From a virus, in IMG/VR virus record IMGVR_UViG_3300024239_000014, positions 185,641 through 249,640 of that record: DNA of 64,000 bases. One strand, 5' to 3'. Of this stretch, positions 35,179 through 38,084 are shown one piece after another. The translations under genes were made by a program, and so were the position numbers. The notes beneath the pieces are model-generated. The model searched no databases. It saw only the letters and a list, made by a program, of their open reading frames with translations, and was not told the DNA's origin. Every line of letters begins with the position of its first letter. Position 1 is the stretch's first letter.

Positions 35179-35616
35179 ATGCCTGAAAACGCAAAGCCGC
35201 GCCGTAAATACGTCCCCAAGACCTCCAACAAAATGGGTGCATGGGACCAGGCGCGCGCCATCCAACAAGAATCACGCAACCTGCTGTCGGTCGTCCCGAG
35301 TGTAGGTCGCGCCATCCGCCAGAAGATGGAGAGCGGCGAACCGTACGATCGGGAGCGCCTGACCGAGCTAGCCAATCTATTTAAGAAAGACGTCGATCTC
35401 TACAGCGCGGAGATCGACCAGATGGACACGCTGCTGGCATCGAAGTCCGGCGATTTTAGCGATGACGACGATCTGGCCACCGCACTGGAACTGGCCATGC
35501 AGTACAGCAATTGGAATGAACGCTGGGCCATGGTGGTTATCCCCACTATCACCGAAATCCTCAATCACTGCCGCCCCGCTGCGGCCACCCCGTCGACTGT
35601 AGAAGGAAGTGCTTAA
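35179..35616 (+). CDS. Hypothetical protein, first gene of the plus-strand hub operon (145 aa)
   Basis: ATG 35179 (MPENAKPRRK) behind CTGGAGTTCAC. Basic N-terminus, helical middle with coiled-coil tendency, acidic SDDDD patch. The stop overlaps the next gene's ATG (TAATG), indicating tight coupling with the gp26-like gene. Probably a baseplate assembly partner; inferred only from the operon. Confidence 0.65.
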   Translation: MPENAKPRRKYVPKTSNKMGAWDQARAIQQESRNLLSVVPSVGRAIRQKMESGEPYDRERLTELANLFKKDVDLYSAEIDQMDTLLASKSGDFSDDDDLATALELAMQYSNWNERWAMVVIPTITEILNHCRPAAATPSTVEGSA

Positions 35617-37193
35617 TGGCCACCATTGACGAAAACGATCTGCCGAAACCACCTCACGTGGAAGATCAAGCCGAACCGACTGCTGCTCAGGAATCGGAAG
35701 CTGCCGATAAAGCAGCAAAAAACGAAACGGACGAGCAGGGCGATATCATCCAGCCGGCCAAACCACGCCAGGGTAAGGTTAGCGGGAAGTCGCCACTCCA
35801 CCCGATGGCAGACGGTGCCCTTTCTGCAGAAGAACCGCACATCATTCTGCCAGGTACCGATTCGATCACCTACAAGCAAGATGTGATGTCAACCATCAAC
35901 CCGCTTCCTGAAAAGGAAATGGAGCGGTTGTTCACATCGGATTGGGGCGTCAGCTTGGTGTTGGGCGAAGAGCTCGCTTATCGCAATGACGACCTGGCAG
36001 AAGCACTCGATCGCACCGATTCCATCTGGGATCATGGGCAAATGCACGATGGTCGAAAGATCAACATCGGTCGCTATTCGCCTAAGTCGGCCGGTGGTCA
36101 GGAGATCTCCGGGCTGATGGCGGTCGCTCGCTTGGCAGCCAGTCAGAACATCGGTAAACCCGTCACCGCACCTCTCTGGCACAGTGGCATTTGGGTGACC
36201 CTGCGCCCTTCCCAGAACATCGACCTGATGAACATGGAAGCCAAAGTCAGTTCGCTCAAAGCAGCGTTTGGTCGCCAGACTCGTGGTCGTGTGTTCTCGC
36301 AAAGCGATGTCTACCTCAAGATGACGGTGGTGGATTTTGTACTCGATCACATCGAGGCTACCACTGCACCATCCGGTGATAAAGCTGATCTGAAAGCACT
36401 GATCAAGATCACCGACATCCCGCTGTTAGTTTGGGCGATGGCTAGCGCTAACCACCCCCAAGGACACTACTACGCTCAGGCATGTACAGCCAAGCCAGGC
36501 AAGTGTAGTTACGTGGCTCGTGGTAAGGTCAACATCCCTGATCTGCTCTATGTAGACAGTTCTGCCTTTACGGACAATCAACGTAAAGCAATGCTGTCAC
36601 CAACACAAAAGGTGTCGAAGGCCGAAAGCCTGGAAGCATACCAGCTTGAATTCAACACCCGTGGTCTGGACTCTTTCGTCTACAATGACACATTGAAGAT
36701 CGAGTTCCAGGTACCCTCTATCGCCGACTATGAAACCGCCGGCTACAGCTGGGTGGCTGAGCTGGAGAAGGCTTACGAGTCACTCTTCGGTCGCGGCGTT
36801 GCATTGGAGCAACGAGGTGAGTACATTACCCAGCAAGCAGAACTGGCCGCACTGCGCCAGTATTCTCACTGGGTGAAGCGTATCGTCTTCCTTGATCCTA
36901 ATGGTGACGAGGGCGACTGGATCGAAAACCGTGACGTTCTGGTCAAGAACATCGAACGTCTGACGGATGATCCGGAATTCAGTAAAGCGTACTACACGCA
37001 TGTGATCAGTTTTATCAACCAAGTCACAGCGGCAGTCACAGCGATTCCGAATTTCGTTTGTCCGTCGTGCGGGAGCCGTCAACCTACTGACGAAGGTCGT
37101 TTCCAACACCTGGTACCGGTAGACATGGCTCAGGCTTTTTTCACCCTCGCCCGCCTGCGAGTATTGACGGCAGTCAGATCGAGCAACATCTAA
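35616..37193 (+). CDS. Baseplate hub protein with C-terminal zinc ribbon, gp26-like (525 aa)
   Basis: ATG 35616 behind AAGGAAGTGCTTA. The first ~80 residues are acidic/polar and disordered; a long alpha/beta body follows. Near the end is a half zinc knuckle, FVCPSCGSR, followed ~20 residues later by VPVDMAQAFF. T4 gp26-type hub proteins have a similar C-x-x-C-G ... V-x-x-D-x-x-x-F-F ending, as I recall it. The frame ends 16 codons after AFF. The AFF codons form U UUU UUC (37136-37142), a -1 slippery site. Shifting there would add 157 residues from the overlapping frame. Both the 525-residue and a 666-residue form are expected. Confidence 0.65.
   Translation: MATIDENDLPKPPHVEDQAEPTAAQESEAADKAAKNETDEQGDIIQPAKPRQGKVSGKSPLHPMADGALSAEEPHIILPGTDSITYKQDVMSTINPLPEKEMERLFTSDWGVSLVLGEELAYRNDDLAEALDRTDSIWDHGQMHDGRKINIGRYSPKSAGGQEISGLMAVARLAASQNIGKPVTAPLWHSGIWVTLRPSQNIDLMNMEAKVSSLKAAFGRQTRGRVFSQSDVYLKMTVVDFVLDHIEATTAPSGDKADLKALIKITDIPLLVWAMASANHPQGHYYAQACTAKPGKCSYVARGKVNIPDLLYVDSSAFTDNQRKAMLSPTQKVSKAESLEAYQLEFNTRGLDSFVYNDTLKIEFQVPSIADYETAGYSWVAELEKAYESLFGRGVALEQRGEYITQQAELAALRQYSHWVKRIVFLDPNGDEGDWIENRDVLVKNIERLTDDPEFSKAYYTHVISFINQVTAAVTAIPNFVCPSCGSRQPTDEGRFQHLVPVDMAQAFFTLARLRVLTAVRSSNI
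37136..37161 (+). promoter_or_regulatory. Programmed -1 ribosomal frameshift site
   Basis: T TTT TTC at 37136-37142 is in phase with the upstream frame as X XXY YYZ. Three bases later CTCGC (37146-37150) and GCGAG (37157-37161) can pair around CCGCCT. The downstream -1 frame is open from well before this point to 37615 and has no start codon with a ribosome site. Confidence 0.65.
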
Positions 37194-37615
37194 CCAGTGC
37201 TCGGTTTAACATCGATAATGCCGGTAGGGTCATCACTCAACCTGAAGCGGTCCTGGACGTACTAAACGGCGTTCCAGGGCCCTTGGATCCAGTGATGGCG
37301 AGATTGGTACTGGATGTGGCGTATCATCGCGCTTACGGGCTAAATGAGGGGATTGACGTAAACAATCCCCTAAACCCTGTGCTGGTGAGACCCAAGGTCA
37401 TCCATACTGAAGATCCATTGTACACGTTTTCCAGACACTTCATGAAGTCAAAGGTAGGAGAGTATTTCCATATCTCCTTCATTGAATTCATGCGTTTACC
37501 GCCTTACCTTTGTGAGTACTTGCTCGACCTGGCAACCAAACGCACTGAGGCCGATGGCCAAGCGGTGGGGAGTCAGGTCGACAAGCTCAAGGCCCTTGAA
37601 AGAGGTAAACCGTAA
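37142..37615 (+). CDS. gp51-like extension read by -1 frameshift (157 residues)
   Basis: In the -1 frame the sequence after AFF reads HPRPPASIDGSQIEQHLTS and on through FNIDNAGRVITQPEAVLDVL to ALERGKP. Composition is clearly coding from about 37160 on. The only in-frame initiators are TTG 37283, GTG 37292 and ATG 37295, all without a Shine-Dalgarno sequence, whereas the slippery site lies just upstream. The helical segment (YFHISFIEFMRLPPYLCEYL) may act as an assembly chaperone, as T4 gp51 does next to gp26. The correspondence to gp51 is inference from order, size and the frameshift habit of tail chaperones. Confidence 0.55.
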   Translation, partial: HPRPPASIDGSQIEQHLTSARFNIDNAGRVITQPEAVLDVLNGVPGPLDPVMARLVLDVAYHRAYGLNEGIDVNNPLNPVLVRPKVIHTEDPLYTFSRHFMKSKVGEYFHISFIEFMRLPPYLCEYLLDLATKRTEADGQAVGSQVDKLKALERGKP

Positions 37616-37640: not shown

Positions 37641-38084
37641 ATGATTGTCTACGAAGGACCTGGTGATATCTTCCGTAGTCCAGCGCAGACTTTGGTCTGT
37701 CCTGTCAACACGAAAGGCGTAATGGGGAACGGATTGGCGTTGGCCTTTAGTCAGCGCTTTCCGGGTTTGTTAGATGTGTACAAGGAATATTGCCAGAGCG
37801 GGCAGTTTAAAGTCAATAGTCTGTTACTGTTAAACCGTGTGTTGTGTTTTCCAACCAAAGATGAATTTTGGCGCGCTAGTCAGCTAGAATGGATTGATGC
37901 CAATCTGGCGAAGCTAGCTGCCACGTACATGCAGCATGACATCCGATCATTAGCCGTACCTGGTCTTGGGTGTGGTAAAGGTCAGTTGTCGTTGTCTGAA
38001 GTCGGACCACTGGTGTATCAACACCTTGACCCGTTACCGATTGACGTGTACTTCTATACGTCACGGGCACCGCACATGCGTTAG
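37641..38084 (+). CDS. Macro-domain protein (ADP-ribose binding/hydrolysing, DarG-like)
   Basis: Start at ATG 37641 (MIVYEGPGDIF) with AAAGGAGACAAGAACCCC upstream. The 147-residue product is one macro domain: LVCPVNTKGVMGNGLALAFS carries the N-x-x-G-V-M-G-x-G-x-A phosphate-loop pattern, and VPGLGCGKGQL matches the second ribose/phosphate loop G-x-G-x-G. DarG-type macro domains remove ADP-ribose from DNA thymidine; others hydrolyse ADP-ribose 1''-phosphate. In a phage it could undo a host ADP-ribosylating defence such as DarTG, or salvage NAD-derived products. The fold call is firm; the role is inferred. Confidence 0.8.
   Translation: MIVYEGPGDIFRSPAQTLVCPVNTKGVMGNGLALAFSQRFPGLLDVYKEYCQSGQFKVNSLLLLNRVLCFPTKDEFWRASQLEWIDANLAKLAATYMQHDIRSLAVPGLGCGKGQLSLSEVGPLVYQHLDPLPIDVYFYTSRAPHMR

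Follow-up and report, generated by a model that had tools for sequence, protein, structure and literature searches.

A conserved frameshift in the tail genes of double-stranded DNA (dsDNA) phages was described by Xu, Hendrix and Duda in 2004, as cited in PMC5009743. In the lambda G/GT system, the 30:1 proportion of the two products is important, and both are absent from the virion (PMC5009743). In phage T4, gp26 and gp51 are chaperones of hub assembly (PMC3004832). These two T4 proteins are paralogous, both belonging to PF12322 (E values of 9e-64 and 4e-52), with gp51 built as a gp26-like protein carrying a C-terminal extension. T4 gp51 is essential, and to our knowledge no function has been assigned to it.

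The window analyzed here, a stretch of 64,000 nucleotides covering positions 185641 to 249640 of a 249,640-base virus record, comes from a phiKZ-like jumbo phage; the frameshift gene, with its parts, and the gene upstream of it lie on the plus strand. A 525-aa zero-frame open reading frame (ORF; 35616 to 37193), preceded by the likely ribosome site GAAGGAAG (35602 to 35609), is homologous to phiKZ gp77 and 201phi2-1 gp136 and falls in the phiKZ gp77 family (phrog_4585), with 238 phage records matched. As an earlier note on this DNA had reported, a U UUU UUC heptamer is correctly phased near the end of this gene: GCT TTT TTC ACC at 37134 to 37145 places the slippery T_TTT_TTC (37136 to 37142) in X_XXY_YYZ phase relative to the ORF that begins with the ATG at 35616. 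The zero frame then stops at a TAA (37191 to 37193) 16 codons past the slip. The open stretch of the −1 frame spans 37091 to 37615, and the extension past the slip (37142 to 37615; 157 codons and a TAA) would give a predicted shift product of 509 + 157 = 666 aa with the junction ...QAFF-HPRPPASIDG. No second copy of either the zero-frame or the −1 part was found elsewhere in the same genome.

The stop of the upstream gene (35179 to 35616) shares one base with the ATG of the frameshift gene. This gene occupies the position of phiKZ gp78, where relatives also have a gene; its product had no convincing Pfam or PHROG match. The SPN3US protein at this position, gp38, was found in virions by mass spectrometry (PMC5694885). 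In the 201phi2-1 record, a "mass spectrometry" note accompanies gp138 and gp139 but not gp136, at most a hint about whether the frameshift products stay out of virions, as the lambda G/GT products do. Directly after the −1 extension lies an ORF encoding a macro domain (37641 to 38084; PF01661, E = 1.6e-7; phrog_335, 1.3e-22).

Both profile and fold comparisons support the zero-frame protein as a remote homologue of gp26, the identity that the earlier note had proposed. An hhalign comparison with an alignment of 84 diverse gp26 sequences plus T4-type ones gave Prob 95.2 and an E value of 2.9e-8, which is in effect a P value because this was a single pairwise comparison; the reversed control gave Prob 0.1% and E = 0.82. 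The match was collinear across nearly all of gp26 and placed terminal FF onto terminal FF. The result was clear only with diverse gp26 sequences, comparisons with small or mixed gp26/gp51 alignments not being significant, and a single-sequence HMM tested against shuffles gave a weak signal for gp26. An AlphaFold2 model of the zero-frame protein (pLDDT 80, pTM 0.81) was matched by Foldseek, beyond its own family, to a T4-like "baseplate hub assembly protein" (E = 1.4e-4, probability 1.00, TM 0.56 by target) and to a "baseplate hub subunit" of Vibrio phage VH7D (E = 8.8e-4). Tail assembly chaperones from other phages were hit by Foldseek at insignificant E values (0.35 and above), and a fold search of the PDB found nothing. 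The homologue in phage DT01 had already been labelled gp26-like by its depositors. The Pfam model PF12322 had no matches in phiKZ-like genomes and did not reach this protein at its curated cutoff, so the protein is not filed as a member of that Pfam family. The CPxCG motif (C482 and C485; 37059 to 37073) is near-invariant among relatives and zinc-ribbon-like, as in gp26.

The junction was compared across 44 distinct phiKZ-like loci, drawn from annotated phages and IMG/VR contigs, whose zero-frame proteins are 14 to 30% identical to that of the window. A [U/G/A]_UUU_UUN heptamer was present at the homologous codon pair in 43 of them (TTTTTTT in 20, TTTTTTC in 12, GTTTTTT in 6, GTTTTTC in 3, and TTTTTTG and ATTTTTC in 1 each). 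At this homologous FF pair, the first codon was TTT in 43 of the 44 loci versus 33% of Phe codons elsewhere in the same genes, an excess with a naive log10 P of about −22 when loci are counted as independent; none of the 14 other FF pairs in these genes begins with TTT. Since synonymous positions are largely saturated at these protein distances, shared descent alone is a poor explanation of the U-tract. Past the FF pair, the zero-frame tail varies from 8 to 44 codons among the loci, in keeping with its unconserved appearance in this phage. The one exception, Vibrio phage pVa-21 (L045), reads GTA CTT TTT ACG; it has A_CUU_UUU in place of a canonical heptamer, with an intact −1 extension. Nine heptamers start with G (G_UUU_UUY; L003, L022, L023, L025, L027, L029, L032, L033, and L050), with the rest of the junction conserved; at the ten sites that start with G or A, re-pairing in the P site would be imperfect. 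No phiKZ-like phage examined carried the second gene in the same frame without a slippery site.

Runs of six to eight T occur in many of these genes, as would suit a fusion translated from mRNAs in which transcriptional slippage had removed or added bases. However, four members have only five T residues (GTTTTTC or ATTTTTC) and twelve have TTTTTTC, and the X_XXY_YYZ phase, which slippage by the polymerase would not need, is exact in nearly all members. We consider a transcriptional origin of the fusion very unlikely.

Homology and selection both indicate that the −1 frame encodes protein. Across the 44 loci it runs open for 123 to 163 codons beyond the zero-frame stop, the +1 frame being mostly short, and the encoded −1 proteins are homologous throughout the set, with 38 of the 44 matching phrog_12109; in this phage, the match starts nine residues past the slip. 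Both statements of the earlier note on this frame, that it is coding-like to 37615 and that it lacks a start codon with a ribosome site, agree with these comparisons. Here the first post-slip start, which has no Shine-Dalgarno sequence, is a TTG at a distance of 47 codons. In the phiKZ-like loci generally, the first −1 frame start usually lies 20 to 100 codons past the slip (codon 85 in phiKZ) and almost never has a Shine-Dalgarno sequence. From the zero-frame stop to the first start or ATG, most pairs of relatives showed purifying selection: pN/pS was 0.25 over the 39 codons before the first −1 start in L023/L033, and dN was 0 with dS of 0.89 over the corresponding 15 codons in L021/L024. The divergent, saturated pair L037/L038 gave values of 0.79 to 0.90, that is, no signal of purifying selection.

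Phage annotators have treated the zero-frame and −1 ORFs as separate genes, giving the second one varying late starts, mostly after the zero-frame stop. In Erwinia phage Simmy50 (L048, 3568 to 4116), the −1 ORF is annotated from about 135 nt inside the zero-frame gene. These inconsistent starts make the annotated N termini of the −1 ORF family unreliable. Could the two ORFs nevertheless be separate genes, the second translated by coupled reinitiation or from its own, possibly non-ATG, start close to the zero-frame stop, with the U-tract incidental? A TTG overlaps the zero-frame stop in 201phi2-1, and the cyanophage loci described below have an ATG close to the slip. Against such an arrangement, most phiKZ-like first starts lie well inside a conserved −1 frame and lack Shine-Dalgarno sequences, the part ahead of them is itself conserved under purifying selection, and the U-tract is kept beyond what codon usage predicts. 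We consider two independently initiated genes very unlikely. Because the slippery codons are conserved, the −1 frame has no nearby initiation signals, and purifying selection acts before the first ATG, these sequence comparisons make programmed −1 frameshifting at this junction very likely.

Downstream RNA structure or an upstream Shine-Dalgarno-like stimulator is common for −1 frameshifting and not obligatory. The hairpin that the earlier note described three bases past the heptamer is present, with CTCGC at 37146 to 37150 pairing with GCGAG at 37157 to 37161 across a 6-nt loop after a 3-nt spacer, but its role as a conserved downstream stimulator was rejected: the 45 nt past the heptamer are no stabler than dinucleotide shuffles in this phage (z = −0.5), and the hairpin is not conserved. 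Across the 44 relatives, mean z was −0.06 after the heptamer versus −0.32 in control stretches of the same genes, with no shared structure. An upstream Shine-Dalgarno-like stimulator was absent from nearly all phiKZ-like loci compared, and an Rfam search returned one chance match.

A homologous junction is also present in T4-like phages outside the T4-type group. The loci compared were those of Prochlorococcus phage P-SSM5 and Rhizobium phage LG08, 80 close cyanophage relatives, and 82 further loci. A slippery sequence stood at the terminal FF or FL in all 84 diverse gp26 genes and in all 80 cyanophage relatives; the heptamers were UUUUUUC or UUUUUUU, with one GUUUUUU and three UUUUUUA. As in the phiKZ-like phages, a UUUUUUN heptamer at the end of the gp26 gene is followed by an extension in the −1 frame. 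This extension is about 60 aa long in the T4-like phages (LSHxSLxNYYxTNFxLMQHHKYSLTELENMIPWEREIYVxLL) and recognizable as the C terminus of T4 gp51, whereas the phiKZ-like extension is about 157 aa long and its homology to gp51 is not demonstrable. In the records of these cyanophages and other T4-like phages (L062, L064, and L065 to L226), gp26 and the short "gp51" ORF are annotated separately or the second is omitted. Among the 80 cyanophage relatives TTT TTC is invariant, whereas synonymous variation is seen in all but 6 of 125 conserved columns. Many T4-like members have no −1 start for 18 to 55 codons, so that initiation cannot make the conserved part; an ATG three codons past the slip in 74 of the 80 cyanophage loci leaves initiation possible there.

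The T4-type phages differ. Those examined encode gp51 as a complete gene of its own (divergent from gp26 in the case of T4), and the seven T4-type gp26 genes that retain the FF pair all read TTC TTT, none having a T-run, with a separate gp51 present. The T4-type pattern is what one would expect if recoding had been lost after a duplication, an order of events suggested here by the genes rather than by a tree. The earlier note had suggested a new version of tail gene frameshifting in this phage group. The junction itself holds up, but it was found in all phiKZ-like phages examined, and the T4-like junctions show that it is not confined to one group. We lean toward the broader view that a −1 frameshift yielding both a short gp26-like and a long gp51-like form is old and near-universal in T4-like and nucleus-forming jumbo phages, and that duplication replaced it in the T4-type phages. 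T4 gp51 would then be the fixed counterpart of the frameshift product.

The earlier note had also described the product as a gp26-like protein fused to a gp51-like partner; the first half of this description fits, and the second does not. Because T4 gp51 is a paralogue of gp26 that carries a C-terminal extension, it is the entire fusion that is gp51-like, not one part of it. Compared with the gp51 C-terminal extension, the −1 domain gave hhalign Prob values of 19 to 22 (E of about 1e-3), and single-sequence HMMs showed no excess over shuffles. Pfam searches of the 44 −1 proteins gave nothing consistent, and the structural model of the −1 domain becomes confident, and shows helices, only from around residue 90 onward. 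With no sequence link demonstrable, it is plausible from position that the −1 domain corresponds to the gp51 extension.

Taken together, these analyses lead us to consider it likely that a programmed −1 frameshift at U_UUU_UUC produces a chaperone pair of 525 and 666 aa in the manner of lambda G/GT. A minority of ribosomes would slip by −1 on the heptamer, tRNA-Phe occupying both sites. The 525-aa short protein would come from those that stay in frame, and the slipping minority would make a 666-aa fusion whose C-terminal domain is mostly helical. The fusion, with its gp26-like domain and extension, would fill the role of T4 gp51, and the short and long forms, needed in unequal amounts, would probably chaperone the complex of tail hub and tape measure, as the known systems suggest by analogy. 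That the slippage is ribosomal rather than transcriptional, that the pair acts as chaperones, and that the −1 domain is equivalent to the gp51 extension are what we infer to be most likely.

The likeness to lambda G/GT lies in a short protein with a minority −1 extension carrying a second domain, a slippery heptamer shortly before the first gene ends, and a presumed role in assembly. Unlike the lambda pair, the proteins are of the gp26-like family, not gpG-like by any significant test, and larger, and no tape measure gene lies beside the frameshift gene (the longest ORF in the window encodes 959 aa, versus 259 kDa for the SPN3US tape measure). With respect to T4 gp26/gp51, the short form ends at the equivalent FF and the long form matches the gp51 layout. 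In contrast, T4 holds the two forms as divergent duplicated genes, its gp26 without a slippery site, and the phiKZ-like protein is about 300 residues longer than its T4 counterpart.

The frameshift could also be real and the protein pair serve a function other than hub or tape measure chaperoning, for example as a structural component of the baseplate or in connection with the adjacent virion RNA polymerase. The frameshift gene adjoins a divergent operon encoding an RNA polymerase subunit and a structural protein, and the zero-frame protein is twice the size of gp26, with its extra parts unexplained. However, the relation to gp26 holds by both profile and fold, and the hub chaperone genes of T4-like phages are recoded at the same place. 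We regard such a function as unlikely, although less so than either separate genes or transcriptional slippage, and retain the chaperone pair as our preferred explanation.

A search of the open-access literature, with subscription papers outside its scope, found no earlier report of a gp26/gp51 frameshift or of a phiKZ-like tail frameshift, and we provisionally regard it as a new finding. The finding leads one to expect a fusion protein, missing from the annotations, in every phiKZ-like phage, in cyanophages, and in other T4-like phages, and shows that the second gene has been annotated with starts that are too late. In phiKZ-like phages, one gene would provide both versions of a probable tail-building helper, whereas T4 uses two sister genes for the corresponding pair. 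If the broader view is true, gp26/gp51 is T4's version of lambda G/GT. These phages also provide a clear example of a lineage in which gene duplication appears to have taken the place of recoding.
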